Assembly (NCBI RefSeq): GCF_015840715.1
Contig: NZ_CP060397.1
Location: 2,004,686-2,068,685, forward strand
Source of the DNA: Synechococcus sp. CBW1004
Lineage (GTDB): Bacteria; Cyanobacteriota; Cyanobacteriia; PCC-6307; Cyanobiaceae
DNA: 64,000 nucleotides
Reading direction: 5' to 3'
Shown: piece by piece, positions 27,874 through 49,080 of the stretch
How the letters are laid out: every line of letters starts with the position of its first letter
Numbering within the stretch: the stretch's first letter is position 1
Notes under the pieces: model-generated
Told to the model about the DNA's origin: nothing
What the model saw: the letters and a program-made list of their open reading frames with translations, nothing else
Database searches by the model: none
Translations under genes and position numbers: made by a program

Positions 27874-30636
27874 ATGGTGAGAGAGAAAATCGTCGCCATC
27901 TTGTTGCAGTGTTTTTTGCTTTTCAGTGTTCTTGTCCCGTTCTCGCTCGCGGCGGGACTCGTGGCGGCTCTGCTGGCGAGCATCGGATTTCGTGCGCTGC
28001 CGCTGCTGATTCAGGGGGCGCTGCTGCCTGTCGTGCTGCTGGCCTGGCTGGTGCTGCTGATGCTGATTTATTGCGGCATCACCACGATCGCAGGCTTCTT
28101 TGTCTCCAAGCCTCGCCGGGCCACCGGTAGCTTGCATTCAATGTCGCCTGGGATGGCTTTTCTTTTTTATCAATATGCGGTGTACAGCCTGCTCGAGGCG
28201 ACGCCATTCCTGGTTAATTTGTTGCGGGATATCGCCCCCCTGAGGCTGCTCTTTTTCAGGAGCTTCAGCACACGCTGCAGGCTGCCTCTTTCGACTGCGG
28301 GAGCTGCCGGAACCATTCAGGATCCCGACATCATTCATATCGACCGTTCGGTGCTTGTCGGTCACGGTGCCCGCCTCGTGGCCCATTCGCTCGTGGTCGA
28401 CGATTCTGGTCGCTACGTTTACCAATCCGCGCCCATCCGCATTCACAGTGGAGCGACGATCGGGGGCGACACGTTGGTCGAGCTGGGGGTCAGCATCGGT
28501 CGCAACGCCATGATCGAGCCCTTCAGCAGGGTGCCTGCTTACACAGTGGTTCCCGATGGTGAGGTGTGGGGTGGTGTGCCGGCCCGATTTCTGCGCAGGC
28601 GATTCGAGGACCTCCCCGTCTCTGTTCAGGCGACCAATGCAACAGTGCTGCCCACATCATCCGATGAAGAGACGCTGCAACTGATCGCCACAAGTCTTGG
28701 GGTGGATCGCGGCAAGATTGATGCAAGCGGTGGATCGAATAACTGTGATGAGTGGGATTCGCTTGGTCAGATGTCGATCGCGGCTTCTTTGCAGCTTCGC
28801 CACGGCATCAAGCTGTCTCCGGAACAGATCTTTTCACTGAACAGCGTCCAGGATGTGCTGGCCCACCTGCAGCATCCCAACGGCATCCAGCCATCGGATC
28901 TTCCGTTGCAGCTCTCTCTGCCTCGCGATCCGGAATTGCTGCCCCTGCTGGATCATGGACGCGTGACATCTGCCCTCTTGGCCAGGGGCCAGTCACCCGA
29001 CCTTGAGGGTCAGGATGGTTCCATTCATGTGGTTGTTGCCGCGACCTTCGTGGCGGAGCCCTTGGCACAGGCTCTGCGGCTGTGGAGCCGGGCTTTTGGT
29101 GTCGCCGTCAGCATTGAATTCGCTGGCTTCAACCAGGTCACGGCCTCCCTTCTGGATCCCGGCAGTCCTTTCGGTCGCAATCGCGATGGAATCAATCTGG
29201 TCCTGGCAAGGCCGGAAGACCTGATGACCCTGAATGATGTGCGTGGCGAAAAAGTCGTCGATGCCATCTTCAGCGCTGCCCAGAAGTTTATGGAACGCGG
29301 AGGTAGCCTGATGCTGGCGAATCTGCCAGCGGCTGTCTCCCCGTTCTCTGCCATTGCGGCGGCTGATTTCAACTGCCTTCTCAATGACTGGAGCGAGCGG
29401 ATGAATTCCCTGCCTGGTCTGATCAGCTTTGATTTTGCTGCCATCGTCAATGCTGTTGGCGCCGATCACGCCCCCGATCCTGACCTGGAGATCGCGGCGT
29501 CCACCCCCTACAGCAGGGAAGTTTATGATCGGCTTGGAATCGCGCTTGCGCGTGTCGTTCGGCGTCGCCGAATCGCTGCGAAGAAGGTCATCGCACTGGA
29601 TGGTGATGGAACGCTCTGGCAGGGTGTTCTCGGTGAAGATGGTATGGAAGGGGTGCGACTTTCTGAGGGGCATGCCTGGTTTCAGAGGCGGCTCATTGAG
29701 CTCAAGGAAAAAGGCGCTCTGTTGGTGATCGTCAGCAAGAATGAGCCTGAAGATGTCTGGGAGCTGCTAGAAGTCCGAGCTGATTTCCCGCTGAACAAGC
29801 AGGACTTTGTCGCTCACAGGATCGGTTGGAAGCCCAAGTCTGAGGCGTTGCGTGAATTGGCCGTTGAGTTGAATGTCGGGTTGGATTCCTTTCTGTTCAT
29901 TGACGACAGTCCAACCGAGCGAGCGACGGTCGAGGCCGGCTGCCCGGAGGTGACGGTTCTGCCGCTTCCTGCGGATTCCAGGCATTACGCTTCGCAGCTC
30001 AATCGTCTGTGGTGTTTTGATGCCCTCGGCGCAACGATGGAAGACGCCAGCCGCCATTCCATGGTCCAGGCAGAAGCCAGGCGCCGTGAGCTGGCAGCGA
30101 AGAATGATGACCTCGAGGCTTATTTGAAGTCGTTGGGCCTTGAAGTCAGGTTTTCTGTGGCCGCATACCAGGACGTACCAAGGTTGGCGCAGCTCAGTCA
30201 GAAAACCAATCAGTTCAACCTTTCACTCAGGCGGCGAGACGAGGATGCCTTCAGGGCGCTGCTTGCAGATGGTGCTCATCAGGTCTGGAAGATTTCGGTG
30301 GTTGATCAGTTCGGGGAGTACGGAATTGTCGGGCTGATCATTGCGAGATTGGTTGATTCTCGGTCCCCTGTCTGCCTGGAGATCGAGAGCTTCATGCTGA
30401 GTTGCAGAGCGTTGGGACGGGGTGTGGAGGAGGCGGCCCTGCATGCCTTGTGCTGTTGGTGTCAGGATCTGGGTGTGGAAACGGTTGTGGCTCCCTACGT
30501 CGTTGCTCCCCGCAATAGTCCTGTGCGCGACTTCTTCAGGCGTCAAGGTTTTTCTGATGCCTCCCAGCTCTTCCGGCGTCCGCTGTTGCCGCTGCCTGTC
30601 CGGCCCGGTCATGTGAATCTGATCGTTCAGATGTGA
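27874..30636 (+). CDS. Membrane/LbH/ACP/FkbH-like multidomain protein
   Basis: 920 residues from the ATG at 27874, chosen because GGAG lies 9 bases upstream (GTG at 27808 and ATG at 27826 are alternatives). Order: two or three transmembrane helices (1-110), a left-handed beta-helix region of the type found at the C-terminus of some NRPSs (about 150-235: SAPIRIHSGATIGGDTLVEL), an acyl-carrier-like domain with Ser296 in CDEWDSLGQMS, then an FkbH domain with the HAD motif LDGDGTLWQG (Asp576, Asp578), VSKNEPEDV and FLFIDDSPTERA, and a GNAT-like C-terminus. FkbH enzymes load a glyceryl or lactyl unit from 1,3-bisphosphoglycerate onto a carrier protein; here the carrier may be built in. GC is lower than in the PKS genes. 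It precedes PKS1 by 119 bp. Confidence 0.85.
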   Translation: MVREKIVAILLQCFLLFSVLVPFSLAAGLVAALLASIGFRALPLLIQGALLPVVLLAWLVLLMLIYCGITTIAGFFVSKPRRATGSLHSMSPGMAFLFYQYAVYSLLEATPFLVNLLRDIAPLRLLFFRSFSTRCRLPLSTAGAAGTIQDPDIIHIDRSVLVGHGARLVAHSLVVDDSGRYVYQSAPIRIHSGATIGGDTLVELGVSIGRNAMIEPFSRVPAYTVVPDGEVWGGVPARFLRRRFEDLPVSVQATNATVLPTSSDEETLQLIATSLGVDRGKIDASGGSNNCDEWDSLGQMSIAASLQLRHGIKLSPEQIFSLNSVQDVLAHLQHPNGIQPSDLPLQLSLPRDPELLPLLDHGRVTSALLARGQSPDLEGQDGSIHVVVAATFVAEPLAQALRLWSRAFGVAVSIEFAGFNQVTASLLDPGSPFGRNRDGINLVLARPEDLMTLNDVRGEKVVDAIFSAAQKFMERGGSLMLANLPAAVSPFSAIAAADFNCLLNDWSERMNSLPGLISFDFAAIVNAVGADHAPDPDLEIAASTPYSREVYDRLGIALARVVRRRRIAAKKVIALDGDGTLWQGVLGEDGMEGVRLSEGHAWFQRRLIELKEKGALLVIVSKNEPEDVWELLEVRADFPLNKQDFVAHRIGWKPKSEALRELAVELNVGLDSFLFIDDSPTERATVEAGCPEVTVLPLPADSRHYASQLNRLWCFDALGATMEDASRHSMVQAEARRRELAAKNDDLEAYLKSLGLEVRFSVAAYQDVPRLAQLSQKTNQFNLSLRRRDEDAFRALLADGAHQVWKISVVDQFGEYGIVGLIIARLVDSRSPVCLEIESFMLSCRALGRGVEEAALHALCCWCQDLGVETVVAPYVVAPRNSPVRDFFRRQGFSDASQLFRRPLLPLPVRPGHVNLIVQM

Positions 30637-30755: not shown

Positions 30756-33700
30756 GTGCCCACCCTCACCGCCCTGCAGCTTGCTCTTCTCAATCAGAAA
30801 GCGGCTCGGGAGCGGTCCCTGCAGGCTGCCGAGCCCATTGCTGTGATCGGCGTGGGCTGCCGCTTCCCCGCTGGTCCCGGTCGCCCCGATCTGGCATCTC
30901 CTGATCAGTTCTGGGACTTTCTCTGTTCCGGTGGTCACGCGATCGGTACCGTGCCCGCCAGTCGCTGGGCGCTTGATCGTTATTACGATCCAACCCCAGG
31001 CACCCCCGGCCGTATGCATTGCCGTCATGGGGCCTTCCTGGCTGAGGTGGATCAGTTCGACCCCGTCCGCTTCGGGATCTCCCAGCGTGAGGCGGAGGCC
31101 ATGGATCCTCAGCAGCGCCTGATCCTCGAGACGGCCTTGGATGCTCTGGAGCGCTCCGGTCTGGGCGAGCGTCAGCTCAGGGGCAGTTGCAGCGGCGTCT
31201 ACATGGGGATCAGCACCTCCGACTATGCGCTGCGGCAGGTGGCCGACCAGCCCCCTGACAGTCGTTACGACCTTTACTTCGCCACCGGAAACACCTACTC
31301 CATGGCGGCCGGAAGGCTGGCTTATGTGATGGGGCTGCAGGGCCCGGCCATGACCGTGGATACCGCCTGTTCCTCGTCGCTGGTGGCGGTGGATCTGGCC
31401 TGCCGCAGTCTGCGCGACCGCAACACCGACCTGGCCCTGGCAGGAGGTTCCAATGTGATGTTGTCGCCTCTGAACAGTCTCTGCTTCTCGCGCAGCGGCA
31501 TGATGGCCAGCGACGGTCACTGCAAGACCTTCGATGCCGCTGCCGACGGCTACGTCCGCGGCGAAGGCTGTGGCGTGGTCGTCCTCAAGCGGTTGGCCGA
31601 CGCGCTGGCGGCTGGTGATCCGATCCTGGCTGTGATTCGCGCCAGTGGTGTGAACCATGACGGGGCCAGTGCGGGTCTGACCGTTCCCAACGGAGAGGCG
31701 CAGCATGGTCTGATGCGTCGCACGCTTGCCCAGGGGCAACTGGACGGGGACCAGATCGATGTGCTCGAGGCGCATGGCACCGGCACCGCTCTCGGTGATC
31801 CGATCGAACTCAGGGCCCTGGCGCCGGTCTATGCCCGTCCGGAGCGCGGCACCGCACTGCAGCTCGGCTCCGTCAAGACCAACCTCGGGCACCTGGAAGC
31901 GGCGGCCGGCATCGCCGGTCTGATCAAGTGCGTGCTGATGCTCCAGCACGGCCGGATCCCCCCCCATCTGCACCTGCGCCAGCCGACGCCCTACATGAAC
32001 TGGGGCGACTGGAAACTCCAGATCCCTACGACGCTCACGCCCTGGCCGCGCCAGGGGGGAGAGCCGCGGCGCGCGGCGGTGAGCTCGTTCGGCTTCAGCG
32101 GCACGAATGCCCATGTCGTGCTGGAGCAGGCCCCGGTGGAAGCCGTGCTGCCCTGGCCCCGCCCGGCAGCGCCTCTCGCCGGGGGCGACTGGCTGGTGTT
32201 CAGCGCCCTCGACAGTGAAGCCCTGCGTCGCTTCGCCCAGGACTTCGCGCGCTGGCTGCCCGATCAACCCGAGCAGGCCTGGGCCGCCCTCTGTGCCACG
32301 GCGCGCCGGTCTCGCAGCCTCCTGCGCTGCCGTCTGGCGCTCCGGGCCGCCTCGGCCGCCGAGGCGGCTCAGCAGCTCCGTCACTGGCTCGAAGCCGATA
32401 GGGGCTGCGACGCGGTCCACACCGCCGAGATCCCCAACCAGCCGCCCCGGCTGGCGCTGCTCCTCTCCCCGCTGAGTCGCGCCGAGCACTGGCAGGCCTG
32501 GCAGCAGATCGGTCTGCGCCCTTCCGCTCTGGTGTTTGATCCGGGCGAGGCGGCCCTGGCGCACGAGCTGGCCGGCACGCCCCCCCAGCTGCGCCTCATC
32601 CCCCGTGAGGCCGGTAGCGAAGCCCTGCTCGCCGAGCATGGCTACGGGGCGCCCCTGCCCCTGGAGGCCCCGGCAGCCGAGACGATGGTGCGGCTCTGGC
32701 TGGCCGGTCACGCCATCAGCTGGGATTCGCTCGATCCCGCCGGCCTCTGGCCCCGCCAGGCGCTGCCCACCACGCCGTTCAGCCGCACGCGCTGCTGGAT
32801 CGACGAAGCCTCCGCAGCTCTGGATCCAGGGGCTGACGCTGGCCTGATTCACCTGCCGAGCTGGACGGCGATCGAGCCCGGGGATGGCCGGGCGGCGCCG
32901 GCGGGCGCCGAGCTGCTGCTGCTCGGTGGGCCCTCGGCATGCCGCGATGCGCTCGTGGCCTCGCTGTCCGGCCGCTCCGTGATCCCCTTGGCGGACCTGC
33001 AGGCGCTCGAGGCCCATCTCAGCCTCAGGCGGGACCAGGGAGCCGACGCGAAGCCCGAGCTGGTCGTGCTGCAGGGGCTGGCGAGTGCTCCTGGGGGGGA
33101 GCCGGTTCGGCTCGATCAGCCCTTCTGGCAGGAGTGGCTGCCCCTGCTCCAGCAGCTCACCGGCCAGGCGGCGCAGCTGGATGGAATCCACTGGGCCATC
33201 GACGCGACGGCCACCGCCGGCTCGGAGGCCCTGGCCGCACTGCTGCGCTGCTGGGCCCGCGAACTCGGTGCCCAAGCCGGCGGCCTGCTGCGCTGCGGCG
33301 CCGAGGGGCAGGGTCTCAAGGAGCTGCTGCTCGCCAACCGCCGTCCCAGCGCCGGGGACGACTGGCGCTGGGACGGCAGCCGCATCGTGCGGCGGGCGCT
33401 CACGCCCCAGGCCTCCGCTCCGGCCGGGCCTGGCCTGCGGCTGCCATCCGGCGCCACCACGATCATCAGTGGCGGCCTCGGCGCCCTGGGTCTGGCGACC
33501 GCCCGCTGGCTGCAGCAGCGCGGCGCCACCCATCTCACCCTGCTCAGCCGGCGTTCTCCTCAGGCCAGCCAGCAGCAGGTTCTCGACGAGCTGCGGGCCG
33601 CCGGTACGGAGGTGGTGGTGGAGCCGGTGGATGTCTGCGCTGCCGACCAGGTGCGAGATCTGACCGACCGGCTGCTGCAGAGCGGCCGGCCTCTGGCCGG

Positions 33701-35690
33701 CGTCATCCATGCCGCGGGCGTGCTCGACGATGGCCTGGTGACCAACCAGACAGCGGACCGCTGCGCCGCGGTCGCGGCCCCGAAGGTGCTCGGTCTGGTG
33801 CATCTCGATCGCTGCACGCGTGAGCTGAAGCCCTGCTTCTTCATCACCTACTCCTCGCTCGCGGCGACGCTGGGCTCACCGGGACAGACCGCCTATGGAG
33901 CCGCCAACGGCTGGCTCGATGGCTACATGCAGCAGCGTCAGCGCGAGGGGCTGTCCGGGCTGTCGGTGAACTGGGGGCCCTGGGCGGGCGGTGGCATGGC
34001 GGCACGCTCCCCGCAGCATCTCGATCTGCTGGAGCCGGATCTGGCCCTGCAGGCCCTGGGCCGGTGCCTGGAGGACTCCGCCGGCCGTGCGGACACGACC
34101 GTCGTGATCGCCCATCTGGGAGCGAGCAGCGCCAGCAACCCGCTTGCGGACCGTGTGCGCCAGCTGGCAGACCAGCTCGCCAGCCTCGAGCAGCCTGGCG
34201 GGGAGCGCGGCCTGGCGCTGATCGAAGCCTGTCTGGCCGAGCTGCTCGGAGAGCTCAGCGGCTTCAACGCCGGCAGTCTCGATCGCGATACGCGCCTCGA
34301 GGCCCTGGGGCTCGATTCCCTGATGGCCGTCGATCTGGCCACCGCCGTCCAGGCGGGGCTCGGGGTCAGCCTCGGCCTCGGGGCCCTCAGCGGTGATCCC
34401 ACCCTCGGGAGCCTGGCCAGCCATCTGCACGGCCTGCTCCACAGCGATGGGCAGGACCCGGAGGACGCCCTGGATCTGGGCGAGGAAGCCACCCTGCCCG
34501 GCGACCTGCTCTCGCTGCTCGGCTCGGCGTCGCAGGAGCCGCCGGCTGAAGGGCCGGGTGAGGCGATTCTGTTCACCGGTGCCACCGGCTTCCTGGGCGC
34601 CTATCTGCTCGCGGACCAGCTCAACCGCTATCCCGATCTGTCGATCTATTGCCTGGTGCGCGCCGACGGCCCCGGCATGGCCCGCAGCCGGGTGCGCAGC
34701 AACCTCGAGCATTACGGGCTCTGGCAGGAGAACTATGGCCAGCGCCTGATCGGCGTGCCCGGCAACCTGGCCGAACCCCGTCTGGGGCTGGATCCACAGG
34801 CCTGGGAGGCGCTCACTGAGCGCCTCAGCGGCATCCTGCACAACGGCGCCCAGCTGAGTTATGTGGCCCCCTATGGCCAGCTCAGGGCGAGCAATGTGCT
34901 CGGCACGCTGGAGGTGCTGAGGCTCGCCGCAGCACGCTGCGACGGCTCCCGCCAGCCTCTGCCGGTGGAGTTCATCTCCAGCACCTCGGTCTACGAGGCA
35001 GCCGCTTACCGGGGGCGCGACCTCGACGAGACCAGTGACCTGAGTGAGTGGCAGGGCATTCACCTCGGCTATTCGCAGACCAAGTGGGTGAGCGAGCGGC
35101 TGGTCTGGAATGCGGCTCTGCAGGGTCTGCCGGTGCGGATCTACCGGCCGCCCCTGATCGCCGGCCATTCGCTGACGGGGGCCTGGCACGAACAGGATTT
35201 TTTGCACCGTCTCATGCGCGGTTGCCTGCAGATGGGCCTTGCCCCTGACCTGACGATGTCGCTCGACCTCGTGCCCGTGGATTACGTGGTGGCTGCCGTG
35301 GGGGCGATGGCCTGGCGCTCCAGGCCTCAGGCGTCGATGCCGCCGGTGTTCCACCTGCACCATCCCGAGCCGGTCCTGTGGACCGATCTGCTGGACGGGA
35401 TGATCGCGATGGGAGCCCCCCTGCGCGCCGTGCCGCTCGACCAGTGGCTCAGCCGCCTGGCCACCGAGCCCGGCAATCCGCTCTATCCCCTGCAGCCCTT
35501 CTTCACCCACCGCTGGGGTCCGGAACAGCTCACCTATCCGGAGCTCAACGCTCCCGCCCATCGAGCCAGGCCGGCCTGCCGGATCACCCAGACGGCCCTC
35601 AACGATGAAGGTCTCCGCTGCCCGGCCTTCAGCGACTTGCTGCAAACGTATGCTCGCACCTTCTTGGCGGATCTCCTTCGTCATGGCTGA
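30756..35690 (+). CDS. Type I PKS: KS - degenerate AT - KR - ACP - thioester reductase
   Basis: 1644 residues from a GTG at 30756. KS (about 27-455) is intact: Cys205 in DTACSSS, His340 in EAHGTGTALGDP, His379 in NLGHLE. The next 230 residues have KS-AT and post-AT linkers (ending PTTPFSRTRCWID) around a shrunken AT in which GHSxGE has become LVFDPGEAAL, so it cannot self-load. KR follows (about 705-1070; SGGLGALG near 900, Tyr in YGAANGWLDG), then an ACP (Ser1188 in GLDSLMAV) and a thioester reductase (GATGFLG at 1275, Tyr1439/Lys1443 in YSQTKW) that should release an aldehyde or alcohol. It resembles HglB-type terminal modules. PKS2 overlaps its stop by 8 bp, so the two are translationally coupled. 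Confidence 0.92.
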   Translation: MPTLTALQLALLNQKAARERSLQAAEPIAVIGVGCRFPAGPGRPDLASPDQFWDFLCSGGHAIGTVPASRWALDRYYDPTPGTPGRMHCRHGAFLAEVDQFDPVRFGISQREAEAMDPQQRLILETALDALERSGLGERQLRGSCSGVYMGISTSDYALRQVADQPPDSRYDLYFATGNTYSMAAGRLAYVMGLQGPAMTVDTACSSSLVAVDLACRSLRDRNTDLALAGGSNVMLSPLNSLCFSRSGMMASDGHCKTFDAAADGYVRGEGCGVVVLKRLADALAAGDPILAVIRASGVNHDGASAGLTVPNGEAQHGLMRRTLAQGQLDGDQIDVLEAHGTGTALGDPIELRALAPVYARPERGTALQLGSVKTNLGHLEAAAGIAGLIKCVLMLQHGRIPPHLHLRQPTPYMNWGDWKLQIPTTLTPWPRQGGEPRRAAVSSFGFSGTNAHVVLEQAPVEAVLPWPRPAAPLAGGDWLVFSALDSEALRRFAQDFARWLPDQPEQAWAALCATARRSRSLLRCRLALRAASAAEAAQQLRHWLEADRGCDAVHTAEIPNQPPRLALLLSPLSRAEHWQAWQQIGLRPSALVFDPGEAALAHELAGTPPQLRLIPREAGSEALLAEHGYGAPLPLEAPAAETMVRLWLAGHAISWDSLDPAGLWPRQALPTTPFSRTRCWIDEASAALDPGADAGLIHLPSWTAIEPGDGRAAPAGAELLLLGGPSACRDALVASLSGRSVIPLADLQALEAHLSLRRDQGADAKPELVVLQGLASAPGGEPVRLDQPFWQEWLPLLQQLTGQAAQLDGIHWAIDATATAGSEALAALLRCWARELGAQAGGLLRCGAEGQGLKELLLANRRPSAGDDWRWDGSRIVRRALTPQASAPAGPGLRLPSGATTIISGGLGALGLATARWLQQRGATHLTLLSRRSPQASQQQVLDELRAAGTEVVVEPVDVCAADQVRDLTDRLLQSGRPLAGVIHAAGVLDDGLVTNQTADRCAAVAAPKVLGLVHLDRCTRELKPCFFITYSSLAATLGSPGQTAYGAANGWLDGYMQQRQREGLSGLSVNWGPWAGGGMAARSPQHLDLLEPDLALQALGRCLEDSAGRADTTVVIAHLGASSASNPLADRVRQLADQLASLEQPGGERGLALIEACLAELLGELSGFNAGSLDRDTRLEALGLDSLMAVDLATAVQAGLGVSLGLGALSGDPTLGSLASHLHGLLHSDGQDPEDALDLGEEATLPGDLLSLLGSASQEPPAEGPGEAILFTGATGFLGAYLLADQLNRYPDLSIYCLVRADGPGMARSRVRSNLEHYGLWQENYGQRLIGVPGNLAEPRLGLDPQAWEALTERLSGILHNGAQLSYVAPYGQLRASNVLGTLEVLRLAAARCDGSRQPLPVEFISSTSVYEAAAYRGRDLDETSDLSEWQGIHLGYSQTKWVSERLVWNAALQGLPVRIYRPPLIAGHSLTGAWHEQDFLHRLMRGCLQMGLAPDLTMSLDLVPVDYVVAAVGAMAWRSRPQASMPPVFHLHHPEPVLWTDLLDGMIAMGAPLRAVPLDQWLSRLATEPGNPLYPLQPFFTHRWGPEQLTYPELNAPAHRARPACRITQTALNDEGLRCPAFSDLLQTYARTFLADLLRHG

Positions 35691-36205
35691 GCAGCCGATC
35701 CCCCCTGAACCGATTGCAATCGTCGGGATCGGCTGCCGCCTCCCGGGCGGGGTGTCCGGTCCCGAGGATCTCTGGGCACTGCTGCGTGAAGGCCGCGAAG
35801 CCATTGGCGAGATCCCAGCTGATCGCTGGGATCTGAACCATCATTTCAACCCCGATCCCCAGGTCCCCCTGCGCCAGCATCTGCGCCGCGGCGGGTTCGT
35901 GGATGGGATCGATCAGTTCGACCCCTCCTTTTTCGGCATTTCCCCGCGGGAGGCCGTCTGCATGGATCCCCAGCAGCGTCTGCTGATGGAGGTGAGCTGG
36001 CAGTGCCTGGAAGATGCCGGGCAGCCCGCCGAGGACCTGCGCGGCAAGCCGGTCGCCGTGGTCATGGGGATTTCCAGCGCTGATTACAGCACGCTGCTCT
36101 GGATTTCACGATCTGATTATGGCCTGCCGGATAACGAGCCGTTCATTCTGCCGGGAAACACAGGCTGTATTGCCGCCAATCGCCTCTCCTATTTCTTTGA
36201 TCTGA
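35683..36205 (+). pseudogene. PKS2, 5' fragment (first part of KS), interrupted by IS5-family element
   Basis: Begins with the ATG at 35683 inside the end of PKS1 (8-bp overlap) and encodes the N-terminal 174 residues of a ketosynthase: EPIAIVGIGCRLPGG, FDPSFFGISPREAVCMDPQQ, ending NRLSYFFDL. The IS at 36206 interrupts it just before the active-site cysteine, and the frame stops at 36216 inside the IS (RKL-stop). The remainder is 37437-43427. Removing the IS and one CTGA copy gives DL-KGPSFTVDTACSSS in frame and a total of 2170 codons. The fragment itself lacks catalytic residues. Confidence 0.92.
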
Positions 36206-37436
36206 GGAAGCTCTGATCAAGACCGGGAATTGAGCGCAAGCGTGTCTCATTCTCGCCAATGAGACACAAGTGGGGTATTTTGTCCTTGGCTACTCGCCAG
36301 GTACTCCAATCCAGGGCCTGACTGGCTTATTTCTCGTGAGTTCCCCGATCATTTTTGGCTGCTCACCCTCAAGATGGCACACTTATTCTGTCATTTACGC
36401 TGTAGAAGGACAACGTTCGCGCACCATCCAGAGATTGGCGAGGGCAAACAGCATCGTCAGCTTGAGGTTGTTCTTGCGGATGCCTCGGTAGAAGACCTTC
36501 CGAAATCCAAACTGGCACTTGATGATCCGAAATGGATGCTCCACCTTTGCCCTGACATGTGCTTTCGCCGCCTCCATCAGATCCAGCAGTCTTCCCTCTG
36601 GGGTGTCCGGTAGAACTCGGCGCTGTCCGGGCTTCATGGCGATGCGCATCTCTGCTTCGCAGTCCTTGAACGCCTCACGCTTTTCGATGCCGATGTGGCC
36701 AGAGTCGCCGTAGATCACGCGTTCCTCGCCATGGACGCGATCGGGTGCCGTGTTCAGCTCATGGACGTTGGCAGCCGTGCTCACCACGGAATGGACCAGA
36801 CCCGAGGCTGCATCCACACCGATGTGGCACCGCATCCCAAAGAACCACTGGTTGCCTTTGGCCACCGAGTGCATTTCAGGATCCCGCTCGCCCGTCTTGT
36901 TCTTGGTTGAACTGGGAGCGTTGATGATTGTGGCATCGAGGATCGTACCCTCCTTAAGCATCACGCCCTTCTCCCGCAGGCTCTGGTTCACCGTCTCCAG
37001 GATCTGCTCTGCTATCCGATTCTCTTCCAGGAGGTGGCGGAAGTTCAGGATCGTCGTCTCGTCAGGGATCCGGTCCTCAACCATGTCGATCCCAGCAAAG
37101 CGGCGGAAGCAGGGGGTATCGATCAGCATCTCCTCCATCAAGGGATCGGAAAGCGTGAACCACTGCTGCAGCAGGTGGATGCGCAGCATCACCTCCAGCG
37201 GAAACGGTGGGCGCCCGCCCTTGGCAGAAGGCCTGTGGTACACAGGCGAAATCAAGGCCAGGAAAGGATCCCAGGGCACTGTGGCTTCCATCTCATCGAG
37301 GAAGCGCTGCCGGCGCGTTTTCTTCTTGGCGTAGGTCTGCTCGTAGTCCGTGAAACCCAACTGGAGGGGGGCCGCCATCCGCTGCCAGTCTCATTATTGG
37401 AACTGTACTGATTCTATCGGGTTTTTCAGGGGTTCC
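36206..37436 (-). mobile_element. IS5-family insertion sequence inside PKS2
   Basis: 1231-bp element with imperfect inverted ends GGAAGCTCTGATCAA (36206-36220) and, inward from the right, GGAACCCCTGAAAAA (37436-37422), 11 of 15 matching. It is flanked by CTGA on both sides (36202-36205 and 37437-37440), a 4-bp target duplication as expected for IS5-type elements. It carries one transposase on the strand opposite to the PKS. Confidence 0.93.
36395..37378 (-). CDS. IS5-family transposase
   Basis: 327 residues, full length for the IS5 subgroup. N-terminal DUF772-type region (AKGGRPPFPLEVMLRIHLLQ, then PCFRRFAGIDMVEDRIPDET), then the DDE core: first Asp in TILDATIINAPSSTKN, second in VIYGDSGHIGIEKR, and the C-terminal Glu region KAKVEHPFRIIKCQFGF-like segment (here VEHPFRIIKCQFGFRKV). 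It looks intact and able to mobilise the element. No accessory gene is present. Confidence 0.94.
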   Translation of the reverse strand: MAAPLQLGFTDYEQTYAKKKTRRQRFLDEMEATVPWDPFLALISPVYHRPSAKGGRPPFPLEVMLRIHLLQQWFTLSDPLMEEMLIDTPCFRRFAGIDMVEDRIPDETTILNFRHLLEENRIAEQILETVNQSLREKGVMLKEGTILDATIINAPSSTKNKTGERDPEMHSVAKGNQWFFGMRCHIGVDAASGLVHSVVSTAANVHELNTAPDRVHGEERVIYGDSGHIGIEKREAFKDCEAEMRIAMKPGQRRVLPDTPEGRLLDLMEAAKAHVRAKVEHPFRIIKCQFGFRKVFYRGIRKNNLKLTMLFALANLWMVRERCPSTA

Positions 37437-40400
37437 CTGAAGGGTCCCAGTTTCACGGTCGACACCGCCTGTTCGTCCTCGCTCGTTGCTGTTCATCTGG
37501 CCTGTGAAGCCATCTGGCGTGGTGAGGCCAGCGCGGCCCTGGCCGGCGGTGTCCAGGCCCTGCTGCAGCCAGGCGTTCACACCATGTTCTGCAAGGCGGG
37601 CCTGCTGGCTCCCGATGGTCGCTGCAAGAGTTTCGATGCGGCAGCCAACGGCTATGTGCGCTCGGAAGGCGCTGGCGCGGTGTTGCTCAAGCCGCTCAGC
37701 GAGGCCCAGGCGGACGGCGACACGGTCTACGCCGTGATCCGGGGCACGGCGGTCAATTCGGATGGCCGCAGCAATGGCATGGTGGCCCCCAATTACCGCG
37801 CCCAGGTGGCCTGTCTGAAGGCTGCATTCCGGCGGGCCGGTGTGGATCCTTCCTCAGCCCAGTATGTGGAGGCCCATGGCACCGGCACCCGTCACGGGGA
37901 TCCGATCGAACTGCGGGCCCTCGGCATGGTGCTCGGGCAAGGCCGCAGAGACGATCGCCCCTGCCGCGTTGGATCGGTGAAGACCAACCTGGGTCATTCC
38001 GAAACCGCCGCAGGCATCACCGGTCTGATCAAGGCGGCCCTGTGCGTGCACCATCGCCAGATCCCCCCCAGCCTGAACTTCCGCACCCCCAATCCCTCGA
38101 TCGATTTCCAGGGCCTCAAGCTCAGGGTGCAGACGGCACTGGAGCCCTTCCCCCAGCCCGACGCGCCGGCGGTGGTGGGGGTGAGTTCGTTCGGCTTCGG
38201 CGGCACCAATGCCCACGTGGTGCTCGATGAAGCACCCCGGCAGCCGGCTCCAGCCCGCTACGGCCAGCAGCTGCCCCTGCAACTGCTCTGCCTCTCGGCC
38301 CGCACCGAGCCGGCCCTGCGCGCCCTGGCCGTGGCCACGGCAGATCAGCTCGAGCGGCAGCCCCAGTCGGGCTTCGAGGACCTCTGCGCCACGGCGAATC
38401 AGTGCCGCAGCCCGATGGTGAAACGGCTCACCTGTCTGGCTCCGGACCGGGCCAGCCTGATCCAGCAGCTGCGGGCCTTCAGTCAGGGGCAGGAGCTGCC
38501 GGGACTGCGCCACGGCCAGGCCTCCCGCCAGCCCGGTCGGCTCGCCTTCCTGTTCACCGGCCAGGGTTCCCAGGCCCCGGGCATGGCCCAGGGCCTCTAC
38601 CAGGCCCATCCGGTCTTCCGTGAAGCCTTCGATCGCTGCACGGCCCTGCTCGATCCGCTGCTCGGTCAGCCCCTGGCGGAGCTGATCTTCCCCACCGAGG
38701 ACCGGCGTGAGCAGGCGGCGGAGCTGCTCTCCCAGACCCGCTTCACCCAGCCCGCCCTGTTCGTGGTGGGTTATGCCCTCAGCCAGCTGTGGCTGAGCTG
38801 GGGGGTGCGCCCCGACCTGCTGATGGGCCACAGCGTCGGTGAGGTGGTGGCCGCTCACCTGGCCGGGGTGTTCAGCCTTGAGGACGCCCTGCGCCTGATC
38901 GAGGCCCGCGGCCGTCTGATGCAGGATCTGCCGGCCGGCGGCGGCATGCTGGCCCTGCTCACCAGCCAGGAGCGGGTTCAGCAGCTGCTCGCCACGCTCG
39001 CGGACGAGGCGGGCGCGTTGCACCTGGCGGCCATCAATGGCCCCACCAACATCGTGGTGGCCGGTGCCGTGGGGCCGCTGCAACGGCTGGAGGCCGCCGC
39101 CGCCGCCGCCGGTGTGCAGGCCCAGCGACTGGCGGTGTCGCATGCGTTCCACACCCCGGCCCTGCGGCCGATGCTGCCGGCGTTCGAGCAGGTGCTGCTC
39201 CAGATCCGCTTCAGCCCCCCGCGGATTCCCCTGGTCAGCAATGTCACCGGGCAGCTGATCGGCGCCGAGATCGCCACGGCCGAGTACTGGTGCCAGCACG
39301 TGATCAGCCCCGTGCGCTTCGGCGACGGGATGGCCGCCTGCAGCGGCATCTCCACGTTCATCGAAATGGGGGCCCGGCCCACCCTGATCGGCATGGGGCG
39401 TCACTGCCTGCGGGAGCCCTACCTGAGCTGGCTGCCCAGCCTGCGCCCCGGCCAGGAGGATCTGGCCGTCCTGCTCGACAGCCTGGCCCGGCTGCACGAA
39501 CTCGGCCACAGCGTCGACTGGCGGGCCTTTCACCGCCCCTTCCCCCATCGGCGGGTCAAGCTGCCGGGCTATCCGTTCCAGCGGCAGCGCTACTGGTGGT
39601 CTCCGGTGGGGCAGGGGGAGGCGCCCAGCACCCTCTGGCGACAGTTCATCCACCCCGGTGGTTCCGGCGCCGCGCTGACGACGCTGCAGTCGGCCGCCGT
39701 CGCCGGCAGTCCCGCGACCGGCCTGCCGGCTCCTGCGCTGGCCGGCGCGGCGGCGGCCCTGGAACCGCTGGCCCTGCCCGGGGGGACGGAGCAGCGTCTG
39801 CAGACCTGGCTGTCGGCCGCCGCGCCGGAGGATCTGAGCGATCACCGCATCCGCAACCAGGTGGTGTTCCCGGCGGCGGGTTTCCTGCTGCTCGCCCTGC
39901 AGGCACTGCAGCAGCTGGAACGCCCCCTGGCACTGGCCGATCTGGAGCTGGACACGCCGCTGCGGCTCAGTGACGCGGCCACGACGCTGCAGCTGGTGCT
40001 GGGTGAGGCCATCGAGTTTCACAGCGCCGGCCCCGAGGCGGGCGCCGGATCCCCGGCCTGGCGTTGTCATGGCCGGGCCCGCCGGCCGCACGGCAGCGAC
40101 GCCTCGGCCATCCCGCCCCCCTTCGCCCCGTTCGAGGCGCCGGCCGACGCCGCCGAGCTCGACCTGGACCACTTCTATGCGGCCCTGCGGCAGTTCGGGC
40201 TCAACTACGGGCCCAGCTTCCGTGGGTTGATCAGCCTGCGCCGCGCCGGCGGCGACCGGCCTGACGCGGACTCCCCCGGCGTTGGTCAGGGGGCTGGCCG
40301 GGCCTGGGCCACGCTGCAGCGTCCCCCTGGCGCCAGCGACTGGGCTCTGCTTGATGCCTGCTTCCAGGCGGTGGCGGCCACGCTGGATCCCGAGGCGTCC

Positions 40401-43400
40401 GCGGGCCAGCTGCTGCTGCCGGTGGGCCTGCAGGAGCTGAGCCTGGCGCGGCTGCCGCTCCCCGATCGCTTCGAGTGCCAGGTGCAGCTGCGCCACAGCG
40501 ATGAGCCGGCTCTGGTGCTGGCCGATCTGCTGCTCTGCTCCAGCGGCGACGCCGCGAGCGCCCCCGAGGTTCTCGGCTGGCTGCGGGGCTTCCGGCTGCG
40601 GCGCCTGCCGCGCCAGGCCCTCGAGTGGCTGTTCCCGCAGGCGGAGGCGGAGCCGGCGGCTGGGGAGTCGCCGCAGGCCCTCAACCGTGATCTGGTGCGC
40701 CATCACTGGATTCCCTTGGCGACCGAAGAGCACCGCGACGGCGACGCCGATGCGCAGGGCCCTCCCGCGGAGGCGGATGTGCTCTGGATCGAGTCGGCCG
40801 ATGCCGACCTGGAGACAGGGATCGCCGCGCTGCTGCAGCTGGCCCAGAAGGCCAGCGCCGGCAGCGCCACGACGATCTGGCTCGTGCTGGAAGGACAGTC
40901 CGCCACGGCCCATGCCCTGGCGGCCATGGCCCGGACCGCGGCCCTGGAGGCGGGCCGCAGCACCTGGTTCACCCTGTGGCTGCCGGCTGGGGCGCGCCGC
41001 GACAATCTCAGCATTCCCTGGGGCGCCATCCAGTGCCTCGCCCAGGAGGAGGCCACGCTCGCCTTCGATGGTGCGCAGCTGCAGCGGGGCCGGCTGCTGC
41101 CGGTCCATCCCGAGCGGTTCCGCTACGGCACCGCCAGCTTCGGCCTCCTGGAAAGCCTGCACCCTGCTCCTCTCCCCCCCCAGAGCCCGGCCCGTGGCGA
41201 ACTGGAACTGGTGGTGGAGGCCACCGGCCTCAATTTCCGCGATGTGCTCAACGCCCTGGGGCTGTTGCGCGAGTACAGCCGTCAGCTGGGCATGGATGAG
41301 GCGGCCCGGGTTCCCTTCGGTGGCGAATGCGTCGGCCGTGTCGTCGCGGTCGGGGAGGGGGTGGATCCCGCCCTGATCGGCCAGCGGATGCTGGCGGCGC
41401 TGGCGGTGGGCAGTCTCGCCAGCCATGTGGTCACGCGCGCCGAGCTGTGCGTGCCTCTGCCCGAGGCGATGTCCATCGAGGTGGGCGCCAGCCTCAGCAC
41501 AGCCTTCCTCACCGCGGTCTATGGACTGGACACCCTGGCTCAGCTGAAGCCTGGCGAGACGGTGCTGATCCACGCGGCGGCCGGTGGCGTCGGTCAGGCG
41601 GCGGTTCAGGTGGCCCAGCGTCTCGGTGCGCGGGTGTTCGCCACGGCCAGCGATGCCAAGCACGCCCTGCTGCTGGAGCAGGGCGTCGAGGCGGTGTTCG
41701 ATTCCCGATCCACCCTGTTCGCCGAACAGCTGCTCGCCCGCACCGATGGCCGTGGCGTCGATGTGGTGCTCAACAGCCTCAAAGGCGAGTGGGTGGACGC
41801 CAGTTTCCGCGCCCTGGCCCGGGGCGGCCGCTTCGTCGAACTGGGCAAGATCGAGATCTGGAGCCGCACCGAAGCGGAGCAGCGCCGCCCCGATGCCCGC
41901 TACCTGCCGTTCGATCTGCTCGAGGTGGCTGCGGCCGATCCCGGCCTGATCCAGCAGCTGCTGCGCGACATCCTCACCCGCGTCGACAGCGGAGCGTTCC
42001 GACCCATCCCGCTGCAGAGCTTCCCGATCGAGCGGACCGAGGAAGCCTTCCGGCTGATGGCCCAGTCCCGGCACATCGGCAAGGTGGTGATTCAGCTGCA
42101 GCCGCGCACGCCGACCGGTCTGGCCATCCGCCCGGCGGGCACGTATCTGATCAGCGGCGCCTTCGGCGGCATCGGTCGCCTGCTCTGCTCGTGGCTGGCC
42201 GACCAGGGGGCCGCTTCTCTGCTGTTGCTGGCCCGTCCCGGTGGCCGCGATCCCGAGCAGCGGCGGGAGCTGCTGGCCTCCCTCACGGCCAGGGGCCTGG
42301 CCGTGCAGGTGCTGGAGCTGGATCTGGGCTGCGCCGGCGAGGGCGGCCACCGGGTGGTTGATGCCCTGCGCGCAGCCCTGGCCGGGCTGCCACCGGATCA
42401 GCCGCTGCGGGGGGTGTTTCATGCCGCCGGCGTGCTGGATGACGGCCTGATTCCCACCCAGACGCCGCAGCGGATCGCGGCCGTCATGGCTCCCAAGCTG
42501 GCCGGCTGGCAGCAGCTGGATCGGGCGCTGCAGGCCAGTGGCGCCGATCCGGAGCTGGTGGTGATGTTCAGTTCGATGGCCTCCCTGATCGGTTCGCCCG
42601 GCCAGTCGGGGTACAGCGCCGCCAACGGGGCCCTCGACGGACTGATGCGGGCTTCCGCGCGTCCTGGTTGGCTGTCCCTTCAATGGGGGCCCTGGGCCAG
42701 CGGTGGCATGGCCGCAGCCCTCGATCCGCAGCAGCAGCAGCGCCTGCAGGCCTTCGGCCTGCGCCTGCTGGAGCCTGCGCTCGCCCTGGAGCGCCTGGAG
42801 CGGGCCATCCGGCAGGAACTCGCCGGCCCGGTGGCTGTGATCGATGTCGACTGGCAGACCCTGGCGCGCCAGGCACCGGAGCGCCAGGCGAGGGCTCTGG
42901 AAGCGCTGGTGCGTTCCTCTGCGCGGGACGAGGAGTCGCCAGAGGCGGCTGAGCCGGCCTATTTGCTCACCCTGAGACAGATCCCGGCGGCGGAACGCTT
43001 GTCGACCCTGATTGCGTTCATTCAGAAGCAACTGGCGACGGTGATGGGCATCGTTGACAGTGACCAGATCGACCCTGGTGAGCCGCTGTTCAATCTGGGC
43101 CTGGATTCATTGATGGCCCTGGAACTGATGGTCCTCCTCGAGAAAAATCTGGGCATCAAGCTGACTGAATCGCTGGTCTTTGAATATCCAACAATCGAGG
43201 CGCTTTCGGGCTATTTCATGCAGGAACTGTTCCGTGATGATGGCTCCTCTGCGACCAGCATTCCGACTGAATCGCTGAGCAGTCACCAGGTCGAGCAGGC
43301 GACCGACATGCCTCCGCAAGATGGGTCTGCGGTTGATGAGCACGTCTCTGAATCGCGCATTGAGCAGGAACTGGAGGAGATCGGTTCGCTCGATGCCAGT

Positions 43401-43427
43401 GAGCTGCTGCGGCAGCTCAGAGGTTGA
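37437..43427 (+). pseudogene. PKS2, 3' fragment: rest of KS, AT, DH, ER, KR, ACP (fully reducing PKS)
   Basis: Main part of the IS-interrupted gene; numbering is for the restored 2169-residue protein. KS Cys185 (DTACSSS); AT with Ser639 in GHSVGE and HAFH, predicting malonyl specificity; DH with His976 in DHRIRNQVVFP (Asn where HxxxGxxxxP has Gly) and a DACFQ Asp motif; ER with HAAAGGVGQAAV near 1553; KR with SGAFGGIG near 1744 and Tyr1899 in GYSAANGALDG; ACP Ser2064 in GLDSLMALEL; a 100-residue acidic tail. A complete set should make saturated chains, probably iteratively, as in HglE-like or highly reducing synthases. The frame is open from 37350, but the residues before 37437 come from the IS. 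Converges on devA-like 24 bp away. Confidence 0.92.
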
Positions 43428-43451: not shown

Positions 43452-44138
43452 TCAGCTGACGATCTGGCCGTCGTCAATCTTGATGACCCGATCCGCCATG
43501 TCGATGACGCGCGGATCATGGGTGGCCATCAGCACAGCGATGCCGTGCTCCCGAGCCCTTGACTGCATGGTGAGCACCACATCGCGCCCCGTGGCCCGAT
43601 CCAGGGAGGCTGTGGGCTCATCCGCCAGGATCAGTTTCGGCTCACAGGCCATCGCCCGTGCGAAGGCCACCCGCTGCTTCTGGCCACCGGACAGCATCGA
43701 TGGGTAGGAATGGATCTTGCTTTCCAGGCCCAGGTCAGCCAGCAACTCGGTGGCCCGACGGGAGCGTTCCTTGTGGGTATGCCTGAGAGTCACCTCCATC
43801 GCCACCTGTACATTCTGAAGTGCCGTGAGAAAGGGCATCAGATGGTGGGCTTGAAAAACAATCCCGATTTCGGATCGCAGTCGCAGCAGCTCCTGATTGC
43901 TGCAACCACGCAATTCCCTGCCCAGCACCCGTAGAGAGCCGCTCTGTGTGGGCTTGAGACCGCCGATGAGGGTCAGCAGTGTTGTCTTGCCACATCCCGA
44001 AGGCCCAACCAGAGAAACGAACTCTCCAGCGGCCACGGAAAAACACACATTCTTGAGTACAGAGGTCGCCAGATCTCCAGCCTGGTAGACATGGCTCAGA
44101 TCATTGGCGATGATCGCATAGCCGTCTGATTCCTGCAT
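43452..44138 (-). CDS. ABC transporter ATPase, DevA-like
   Basis: 228 residues; ATPase of a MacB/LolD/DevA-type exporter. Walker A GPSGCGKTT near residue 45, Q-loop in GIVFQAHHLMPFLTA, signature LSGGQKQRVAFARA, Walker B LILADEPTASLD and the His switch in MATHDPRV are all present. It is the last gene of a minus-strand set (DevB-, DevC-, DevA-like), 42 bp after the permease gene. DevBCA exports heterocyst glycolipids in Anabaena, so with the PKS genes next door a lipid-export role is likely (inference). GC is noticeably lower than in the PKS genes. Confidence 0.92.
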   Translation of the reverse strand: MQESDGYAIIANDLSHVYQAGDLATSVLKNVCFSVAAGEFVSLVGPSGCGKTTLLTLIGGLKPTQSGSLRVLGRELRGCSNQELLRLRSEIGIVFQAHHLMPFLTALQNVQVAMEVTLRHTHKERSRRATELLADLGLESKIHSYPSMLSGGQKQRVAFARAMACEPKLILADEPTASLDRATGRDVVLTMQSRAREHGIAVLMATHDPRVIDMADRVIKIDDGQIVS

Positions 44139-44180: not shown

Positions 44181-45365
44181 TTAGCCAAAGAGCTCCGAAG
44201 GATCGGCGTCATTCAGTTTTGACATCGCAAACAAGGAAGAGGCGCAGCACATGGAAACAATCAATAGGAATGTGGCAACGACCGTCTTAAGGGGCAGATC
44301 CATGGGCAAGGAGGTGTTGGCTGTGATCAGCATGCACAGGATTGAACTCACCAGCCAGGCCACTGGGAAACCCAGCACCGAAAGGATCAAGCCTTCGTTA
44401 AAGACGATCCGTTCCAGTCTCAAGCGCCGATAGCCGATCGACATCATCAGGGCGTAAGCAGGAAGATGAAAGGTGACATCCATGCTCAGCAGTTGATAGA
44501 CCATCATGCTGCCAACGGACAATCCCATGACCGCACAAAAAGCGAACACTGTCCCAATGGGTTTGCTGGTTGACCAATAACTTTTTTCGGTGGAAACAAG
44601 GTCATCCCTAGTCATGATGGTCACGTCAGGGGACAGAGATTTTCTGATCCGGGATGCCGTTTGCACGGGATCCGCGCCCGGCCTGAGTTTGACCAAGCCA
44701 AGCTCGATGATTCTTTCTTCCTTGGGTGGGAAGATAGCATTGATGGTGTTGATATTTGTGATGAACGACGCGTCGTATCCAAAGGAGGGTCCCAGTCGCA
44801 CCAAGCCTGCAACCCTGAGCCTGTGATCATTGACAAAAGCGTTAACCGTCTTTCCAGAGTTGAATAACTCTTTGACGGGCCCAAACTCAGGTCTTGACAA
44901 TACATCGTAGAGCACACGGCTCTCCACCGTCAGCTTCCCTTGCTGTTCCTTCACGGCGGGGTCATTAAAGACCGGCTGGCTGGGATTGATTCCAATCCCA
45001 ATGGACCATCTGCTCATGTCATCGCCTGGGAGGCGCCACTTCACATATCGCCATCGAACTGGGTAGATATCATCAACGGATTTGTCTGCGTAAACATCTG
45101 CGAGCCGCGATTCAGGAAAACCGGCAATGCCTGTCAGGCTTGCTGATTGAGGATTCAGGACAACAAGATCGGTGTTGAACTTGTTGAAGATAGCGACACT
45201 GGAATTGTAGAGGGCATCCTGAATAGCAAGCTGCATCAAGATGAGAATAGAGGCGAACGCCACCCCAAGCACGGCAACCAGGAGCTTTGTTGGTTGCTTC
45301 TTCAGCAGCAGCCAGGCGATGGGGATTCTGCGCTTGCTGAAAGGATCAAAAGAAAATCTTTTCAT
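44181..45365 (-). CDS. ABC exporter permease, DevC-like (FtsX family)
   Basis: 394 residues, opening MKRFSFDPFSKRRIPIAWLLLKKQPTKL, with a first transmembrane helix (LLVAVLGVAFASILILMQLA), a periplasmic region of about 200 residues, and three helices at the C-terminus (VFAFCAVMGLSVGSMMVYQL onwards). This is the DevC/MacB-type layout. Its ATG overlaps the stop of the DevB-like gene (ATGA), so the two are translationally coupled. A hand count of one 60-base stretch (44701-44760) gives 25 G+C against 42 of 60 in ureC, suggesting a foreign origin. Confidence 0.92.
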   Translation of the reverse strand: MKRFSFDPFSKRRIPIAWLLLKKQPTKLLVAVLGVAFASILILMQLAIQDALYNSSVAIFNKFNTDLVVLNPQSASLTGIAGFPESRLADVYADKSVDDIYPVRWRYVKWRLPGDDMSRWSIGIGINPSQPVFNDPAVKEQQGKLTVESRVLYDVLSRPEFGPVKELFNSGKTVNAFVNDHRLRVAGLVRLGPSFGYDASFITNINTINAIFPPKEERIIELGLVKLRPGADPVQTASRIRKSLSPDVTIMTRDDLVSTEKSYWSTSKPIGTVFAFCAVMGLSVGSMMVYQLLSMDVTFHLPAYALMMSIGYRRLRLERIVFNEGLILSVLGFPVAWLVSSILCMLITANTSLPMDLPLKTVVATFLLIVSMCCASSLFAMSKLNDADPSELFG

Positions 45366-46294: not shown

Positions 46295-46443
46295 TAACGC
46301 GACATTTGAATGAGAAAAATCAAGCAGCCTTTCGGAATGCTCCTGGCGTGGCGCTGGTGCGCGCCCCGTCAACTGCAATGGATGTCTGGATCACTTTACC
46401 CGAATGGGGACAATTTCTGCGGCGTCTTGTTTTGACACACTCA

Positions 46444-46452: not shown

Positions 46453-46509
46453 CGGGGCCGGTCGGTCGGTTGAGCTGCCCAATCCACGATGGTTGAGGAG
46501 TCCCGGGTC

Positions 46510-49079: not shown

Positions 49080-49080
49080 G
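47989..49080 (+). CDS. IS630-family transposase
   Basis: 363 residues from the ATG at 47989, preceded by GAGGGGG. N-terminal helix-turn-helix (IVQRAQIVLACAAGDTNTSV, then AKRFGVRSATVGKWRQRYLD), a second winged-helix segment (AAETGISKSTVHRWLQTFSL), and the DDE core: VLCVDEKTQIQALDR, HLIVDNYCTHKHAKV and TPTYASWLNQVERWFGLITQ. All three acidic residues are present and there is no frameshift, so the element may be active. Confidence 0.95.
   Translation: MPSGRPMAPLELSADEASQLQSLAGSRSLPHSIVQRAQIVLACAAGDTNTSVAKRFGVRSATVGKWRQRYLDLGIEGLHDELRSGRPRTYEDDTVAEVINRALQSKPTDGSTHWSARTLAAETGISKSTVHRWLQTFSLQPHRQKSFKLSTDPFFVEKVRDIVGLYLNPPDKAMVLCVDEKTQIQALDRTQPLLPMGLGYVEGVTHDYIRHGTTTLFAALDVATGEVITQCKPRHRHQEFLGFLRQIEKSVPEDLDLHLIVDNYCTHKHAKVRAWLAQRPRFHVHYTPTYASWLNQVERWFGLITQRAIRRGSFSSVKELIARIEQFVAAYNTTKAPFNWTATADSILEKLQRLCAQISGTAH

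Follow-up and report, generated by a model that had tools for sequence, protein, structure and literature searches.

FkbH-type enzymes of assembly lines take the place of an adenylation domain and load a glyceryl unit from 1,3-bisphosphoglycerate onto a carrier domain (PMC8949500, PMC7489565), and FkbH with a carrier in cis is already known from such assembly lines (PMC8949500, PMC6520454). In the vioprolide pathway an ester-forming C domain links a fatty acid to the carrier-bound glycerate that FkbH has loaded (PMC8949500), and for tetronate pathways acylation of the glycerate-derived hydroxyl has been proposed (PMC7489565). In the synthetases of the Pls/PosA kind, the PosA model consists of three sets of a helix pair, short helices and a five-turn left-handed beta-helix (LbH) (PMC10522769). 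In the heterocyst glycolipid pathway of Anabaena, HglT glucosylates the corresponding fatty alcohol (PMC7360850), and hgl islands are also found in some unicellular cyanobacteria, with 35 of 2,279 non-heterocytous genomes counted (PMC11804610). Here we describe a gene of Synechococcus sp. CBW1004 that joins a membrane LbH half to a carrier and an FkbH unit in one chain. The gene lies at 27874..30636 on the plus strand of the 64,000-nucleotide stretch that was analysed (contig NZ_CP060397.1, positions 2,004,686 to 2,068,685; the window). The initial annotation of this gene regarded FkbH proteins as normally working with a separate carrier or inside a polyketide synthase (PKS). This view is too narrow with respect to the carrier, given the assembly-line examples and two FkbH-carrier-thioesterase proteins from other cyanobacteria (G025 and G032), and what stands as new is the membrane LbH half. 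Tentatively, and at somewhat less than even confidence, the fusion is read as a self-contained, membrane-anchored glyceryl O-transferase.

The gene encodes 920 amino acids with no internal stop. Its frame is open back to a GTG at 27808, and the ATG at 27874 is preferred as the start because a GGAG lies upstream of it and the relatives begin near it. The parts follow in the order helix pair, helical stretch, LbH, carrier and FkbH unit (residues ~383–900), all on the plus strand. The membrane helix pair (residues 1–79; 27874..28110) shows two strongly hydrophobic helices with hydropathy peaks at 6–24 and 49–67, modelled as helices 3–36 and 43–76 with low confidence, and a weaker stretch follows at 90–127. 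Residues 142–246 (28297..28611) are assigned to an LbH domain and, by sequence, match gamma carbonic anhydrases (best E 4.5e-8) and hexapeptide acyltransferases among solved structures, whereas a seven-row profile (A5) matches many LbH structures with a best E of 5.6e-15. The Pfam Hexapep model reaches 16.9 bits, below its cut-off of 27, and the LbH assignment therefore rests on the other family and profile matches. The carrier domain (residues 266–336; 28669..28881) is matched by PF00550 at 270–332 with 23.5 bits against a cut-off of 20.8, and its predicted phosphopantetheine site is Ser296 (28759..28761), the serine of the sequence WDSLG. The FkbH N-terminal domain (residues 383–560; 29020..29553) is recognized by alignment to other FkbH proteins, with no Pfam FkbH_N match in this protein. 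It is followed by the HAD-IIIC part (residues 569–715; 29578..30018), which carries DGDGT at 576–580 and is matched by TIGR01686 and TIGR01681, the former assigning the FkbH unit with an E of 2.5e-92 and 309.5 bits against a cut-off of 146.65. The GNAT-like C-terminal part (residues 745–900; 30106..30573), with the invariant Cys844, is matched by PF00583 at 22.2 bits against a cut-off of 20.7. Family scans of the protein matched no thioesterase or other release domain, and no AMP-binding match indicating an adenylation domain appeared even at E up to 1. The five-part protein of the initial annotation, with its N-terminal membrane helices, carrier-like domain with Ser296, HAD motif DGDGT and GNAT-like end, is thus borne out, and the FkbH N-terminal domain is added to it as an extra part.

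Two structure models were compared, one of the full-length protein and one of its N-terminal part. The full-length model, built from seven rows, has a mean predicted local distance difference test score (pLDDT) of 64.6, with a good FkbH unit and a poor N-terminal third. In both models, at low confidence, the helix pair is followed by short helices, a ladder of short strands and then a carrier of four helices, the second of which opens with Ser296; in the N-terminal model this helix spans 296–310 and starts at Ser296, again with low confidence. The expectation that region 260–350 would fold as a carrier agrees with the prediction, which models residues 266–336 as such a domain at modest confidence. 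The best 50 of the 265 Foldseek matches to the N-terminal model are carrier proteins as judged by title and chain length, one of them a PCP-R didomain; among these 50 the best E is 0.0053 with a target TM-score of 0.71, and none falls below E 0.001. In the fold search with the full-length model 3slr ranks first, as it does by sequence among solved structures; besides it, the rows listed are GNAT and HAD-like proteins and matches of low TM-score, with none for LbH.

The fusion is a genuine protein architecture. It is present at full length in five genomes, namely its own, two of the same genus (G011 and G015), a distant cyanobacterium (G347) and a metagenome-assembled genome (MAG) of the Terriglobia, and the identical architecture in the four other genomes rules out an artefact of assembly or frame. 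LbH and FkbH are encoded by one gene in all five full-length members, so the possibility raised earlier that they are separate genes in the relatives does not apply. The fusion is also rare. A whole-protein search of 40 genomes (own and relatives) gave matches in five, with G011 and G015 near full length at 52 and 51% identity, a single fusion match in the own genome, and matches to the FkbH part only in the remaining two, G025 and G032. With a profile of the N-terminal half (350 positions), matches came from three of the 42 genomes of the genus and, in the phylum, from five of 386 genomes. Two of these five are full length (own and G347), whereas the other three (G096, G308 and G176) are weak, lie in short frames of 214–369 residues and were not taken as members. 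In G176 the 233-residue protein aligns with profile positions 14 to 241 and could be another protein of the helix-pair-LbH kind. The Terriglobia fusion is 37% identical, and its MAG is the one genome matched by this profile among the 299 of its class (E 1e-30) and the 396 of its phylum (E 1e-20). Viral contigs gave six loci, with short LbH matches, and plasmids searched with the N-terminal half gave six records, comprising a Pls-like protein of Embleya with three LbH units and LbH-only matches in the others; two phage records match the FkbH part only.

The Terriglobia MAG additionally encodes two shorter proteins of 241 and 250 residues that have the helix pair and LbH and neither carrier nor FkbH, which indicates that the membrane LbH also exists alone. 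Their genes lie at L031 1611–2336 and L032 8377–9129, the former adjoining two genes assigned by eye, one FabH-like and one possibly for a sulfotransferase, and directly upstream of the Terriglobia fusion is an SDR (FabG-like) gene (L007 610–1371).

FkbH matches at E 1e-30 occur in 43 of 377 genomes of the phylum, with 50 matches in total. In an FkbH tree of 39 rows, built from the best 30 of the 50 FkbH loci together with others after L060 and L064, second copies of the own and G347 rows, had been dropped, the five fusions form one clade with support of 99/96, and the fusion label requires one change compared with a mean of 4.9 for shuffled labels; the tree program warned of long branches and uneven composition. 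The sister group of 13 rows contains the FkbH-carrier-thioesterase proteins of G025 and G032, to which the domain scan within this group was confined, and the FkbH parts of longer frames of up to ~3,900 residues, which we take by their length to be megasynthases. Identical FkbH rows were obtained from a Pirellula MAG (L008) and an Alphaproteobacteria MAG (L009), suggesting cross-contaminated bins.

Several residues are kept across the members. His171 (28384..28386), the candidate catalytic residue of the LbH, is invariant in seven of seven sequences, including two LbH proteins without carrier or FkbH. Trp-294, Asp-295 and Ser296 are kept in all five fusions, and Cys844, which sits in an SCRxLGRGVE stretch, is kept in the five fusions and in all seven rows of alignment A3. 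Thr580, the threonine of DGDGT, is replaced by Ile in G347. The roles of Cys844 and His171 are ones that we assume, as is that of the His which we take to be catalytic in WcaF and LacA. Between G011 and G015, the ratio of nonsynonymous to synonymous rates (dN/dS) is 0.23 for the membrane part, 0.10 (0.096) for the LbH, 0.14 for the carrier, 0.14 for the FkbH N-terminal domain and 0.15 for FkbH, and the synonymous distance is near saturation for the membrane part and the LbH, so that the LbH value is rough. The linker between LbH and carrier has a ratio of 0.69 over 15 comparable codons. As judged from these ratios, the domains of the fusion are under purifying selection between the two genomes.

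The DNA identity between the same two copies (L002 of G011 and L006 of G015) changes abruptly along the gene. It is 41–64% in the upstream kilobase and 53–65% from residue 15 to ~214, rises to 76% at residues 214–264, and amounts to 80–97% from residue 264 to the end of FkbH. The upstream kilobase of G011 and G015 holds an MFS transporter gene, to which nothing in this window matches. In this one pair, the step in identity looks like the result of recombination near the LbH-carrier boundary, as if the LbH half, with the upstream MFS gene, and the loading half were exchangeable.

The LbH half had been likened in the initial annotation to a terminal domain of nonribosomal peptide synthetases (NRPSs). 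TIGR02353, the model of the Pls/PosA terminal domain, does rank first among LbH families for the own and Terriglobia fusions and the two stand-alone proteins, four of the five proteins scanned; it gives the fusion 30.4 bits against a cut-off of 423.1, and in the eight genomes searched with it no protein is above the cut-off. Four plasmid-encoded proteins annotated as Pls/PosA served as the reference, three of which have adenylation and carrier domains in one chain and the fourth a separate AMP-binding gene alongside. An hhalign comparison with the alignment of these four sequences finds their three LbH units with probabilities of 98.7, 98.4 and 97.1, and the LbH region alone gives 98.7, 98.2 and 97.3, showing that the signal stems from the LbH. 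In the third unit a His is aligned with His171 in the three proteins with an alignment, and a similar motif is present in the fourth; a 204-residue LbH protein from a polysaccharide locus also has, by eye, a His in a like place. The fusion shows the order of a PosA set, helix pair, short helices and LbH, once. Membership of the Pls/PosA family is rejected on the grounds of the score below cut-off, the lack of an adenylation domain and the one membrane-LbH unit in place of three. That the protein might work like a Pls unit is an argument by analogy from the set and order of its parts.

The mechanism that we propose for the glyceryl O-transferase has three steps. From knowledge of the family, the FkbH unit would take glyceryl from 1,3-bisphosphoglycerate, remove its phosphate and charge the phosphopantetheine arm on Ser296. 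Glyceryl loading at the membrane on a built-in carrier was part of the initial annotation, and the carrier in cis, the membrane-anchored LbH and the complete FkbH unit of the sequence make such loading in cis probable. In the second step the LbH, which the helix pair anchors and which is probably a homotrimer, would transfer glyceryl off the carrier and onto a hydroxyl-bearing acceptor at the membrane by means of His171; this step is favored because one chain holds both the carrier and an LbH whose His is invariant. In the same-genus genomes only, the neighboring genes suggest that the acceptor could be a long-chain alcohol or diol made by two polyketide synthases, PKS2 and PKS1, and reductively released; glycerate would here take the place that glucose has in heterocyst glycolipids, and export by a DevBCA-type transporter would follow. 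The parts would mirror those of Pls/PosA (activation domain, carrier and membrane LbH), except that FkbH stands in for the adenylation domain and that a single LbH unit is present where Pls/PosA have three. An extension of this proposal, which we consider unlikely, would make the fusion the glycerate counterpart of a poly-lysine synthetase, a homotrimer with FkbH for the adenylation domain whose LbH trimer places one or many glycerates on a polyketide alcohol, giving an (oligo)glycerate-headed envelope lipid for DevBCA-type export. If true, both the head-group chemistry and this class of carrier-dependent membrane acyltransferase would be new.

The genes downstream of the fusion provide the basis for the proposed acceptor. 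PKS1 (30756..35690, plus strand) has the Pfam domains KS, KR, ACP and a reductive release domain (NAD_binding_4), with no AT matched by Pfam. PKS2 is interrupted in this strain. Its 5' piece (35605..36216, plus strand) encodes the N-terminal part of the KS (PF00109 model positions 2–164 of 252), and its 3' piece (37350..43427, plus strand) encodes the rest of the KS followed by AT, DH, ER, KR and ACP and is 63% identical to the unbroken gene of G011. The interruption (36216–37350) is occupied by a transposase gene of the DDE_Tnp_1 type (36395..37378, minus strand; PF01609 and PF05598). This split of PKS2 may have disabled the lipid-like pathway in the present strain. Three genes on the minus strand follow, encoding a DevA-like ABC ATPase (43452..44138; TIGR02982, E 9e-85, 283.7 bits, just under the cut-off of 295.8), a DevC-family permease (44181..45365; TIGR01185, 304.6 bits against 290.35) and a DevB-family membrane fusion protein (45362..46378; TIGR02971, 160.8 bits against 129). 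DevBCA exports heterocyst glycolipids, a function carried over here from the family names alone. A possible PapA/condensation-like acyltransferase (46489..47931, plus strand) matches PF16911 at E 2.8e-5, below the cut-off; G011 has a homologue with 28% identity, and G015 yielded none. Directly after it is a further transposase gene, DDE_3 with a helix-turn-helix (47989–49080). Two IS66 transposase genes (19798–21336 and 49576–51114), 99.8% identical and in opposite orientation, flank the stretch with the fusion, the PKS genes and the exporter, which may be a mobile island.

Within the genus, PKS1 has a full-length orthologue (63% identity) in exactly the three of 42 genomes that carry the fusion, and two further same-genus genomes match only through parts of other PKS frames. 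Both PKS genes are confirmed in G011 and G015, PKS2 being unbroken in G011 and matched by both pieces in G015. DevB and DevC are above cut-off in all three same-genus loci, where DevA scores 283.7, 277.2 and 278.0 bits against 295.8, and the exporter proteins are 50–63% identical between the loci. With two reducing PKSs, reductive release and a DevBCA-type exporter, the same-genus locus is lipid-like and looks able to make and export a long-chain lipid. No HglT-type glycosyltransferase and no methoxymalonate or tetronate partner genes were recognized among the neighboring proteins scanned, a selection of the open reading frames. The G347 fusion lies mostly among housekeeping genes, as identified by eye, and in the 57 kb around it PKS1, PKS2, DevA, DevB, DevC and the acyltransferase are without a match (E 1e-10, more than 80 residues). 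This absence of the locus genes favors a self-contained enzyme.

Several results weigh against the glyceryl O-transferase proposal. Its transfer, acceptor and product are ones that we infer. The N-terminal model, built from three rows, has a mean pLDDT of 49.6, with values of 29–56 for 10-residue blocks over the LbH, and the Terriglobia copy sits on a 7.5-kb MAG contig that could be mis-binned. The likeness to Pls is less particular than TIGR02353 by itself suggests, as this model ranks third for G347, behind two acetyltransferase families, and matches weakly in 9 of 14 control genomes, above cut-off in one of these. The best Pls/PosA unit scores 52.8 bits with the N-terminal profile, the remaining units lower, and generic LbH proteins reach 53.0 (viral L049), 51.3 (Cupriavidus), 49.4 (G308) and ~48 bits (Caballeronia; a protein annotated as DapH/DapD/GlmU-related, among glycosyltransferase genes). 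The wider of these controls covered the six viral loci, the Cupriavidus protein and the weak N-terminal matches of the phylum. The idea that the LbH likeness is specific to Pls is weakened accordingly, and of the earlier comparison with an NRPS terminal domain the likeness stands and the specificity does not. The case for common descent of the membrane helices and their Pls counterparts is weakened likewise, since region 1–136 alone scores no better against Pls than 20 column shuffles. The vioprolide precedent is one in which the glyceryl is acylated, not transferred (PMC8949500), and the constant company of PKS1 within the genus fits the loading of a polyketide starter equally well.

Such starter loading, in which the built-in carrier is charged with glyceryl, the KS of PKS2 or PKS1 takes the starter, the chain ends in a vicinal diol and the LbH only anchors and trimerizes, is somewhat unlikely and yet the best placed of the alternatives. 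FkbH is accepted as a loader of glyceryl onto carriers (PMC8949500, PMC7489565), fusion and full-length PKS1 share the same three of 42 genomes, and PKS1 begins 119 bases downstream of the fusion in this window, with both genes on one strand. In G011 and G015, however, the fusion is on the strand opposite to the PKS genes, and in G347 the locus genes are absent around it, though many other PKS genes are present elsewhere in that genome. The invariant His171 and the lowest dN/dS of the protein in the LbH (rough, near saturation) also exceed what an anchor needs. Less probable still, and quite unlikely, is the acyl-to-glyceryl transfer of the initial annotation, by which the LbH would acylate the hydroxyl of carrier-bound glyceryl to an acyl-glycerate that is then released or passed on. 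The LbH resembles hexapeptide enzymes that transfer acetyl and acyl groups, and both the ester-forming domain of the vioprolide pathway (PMC8949500) and the acylation proposed for tetronates (PMC7489565) offer published parallels, for which the idea is kept as a rival. Against it, the fusion has no matched thioesterase or other release domain, its set of parts resembles that of Pls, whose carrier is the donor, and glyceryl transfer to a hydroxyl fits the order of the parts at least equally. A homopolymer synthetase, which would build an oligo- or polyglycerate ester by adding one glyceryl after another to the hydroxyls of glycerate, much as Pls works with lysine, is improbable: the kinds of parts equal those of Pls/PosA and glycerate has both carboxyl and hydroxyls, but there is one LbH unit against three (a number that a homotrimer could reach), the PKS and exporter neighbors would not be required, and a microbial glycerate polymer was not found among top-ranked open-licence PubMed Central matches.

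FkbH is known as a supplier of glyceryl inside assembly lines, and the single-chain version suggests that glyceryl thioesters could also decorate something at the membrane. The fusion would offer a compact system for studying how a carrier domain feeds a membrane LbH, which is harder in the three-unit Pls enzymes; for the terminal domain of the latter, PMC10522769 reports no solved structure. The locus may in addition be a sign that unicellular-type cyanobacteria make an envelope lipid not yet described.

When the fusion is compared with known systems, it shares with the glyceryl-loading HAD-IIIC enzymes Mad7 and Mad14 of tetromadurin a complete FkbH unit, HAD motif I and the invariant cysteine (Cys844), and differs from them in having its FkbH in one chain with a membrane LbH and an upstream carrier. 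A carrier in cis with FkbH is also a feature of AerB (suomilide), DysB and the G025 and G032 proteins. The last two run in the order FkbH, carrier, thioesterase and are without the membrane LbH, whereas AerB and DysB carry NRPS modules (PMC10143770, PMC6520454). Among the open-licence PubMed Central matches, in part the top-ranked ones only, no description of an FkbH protein with a membrane LbH was found. In common with generic hexapeptide acyltransferases of the WcaF/LacA kind, the LbH has a His in what seems by eye to be the same place, but the protein of this kind that was examined in full has 204 residues and lacks helix pair, carrier and FkbH. Like Pls/PosA, the fusion has an activation domain, a carrier, and a helix pair with LbH; unlike them, it has no adenylation domain, one LbH unit against three, and its parts in reversed order. 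At the level of the locus, reducing PKSs with reductive release stand beside a DevB/DevC/DevA-type exporter as in the heterocyst glycolipid pathway of Hgl PKS, HglT and DevBCA, with the difference that the head-group enzyme here would be the FkbH fusion.

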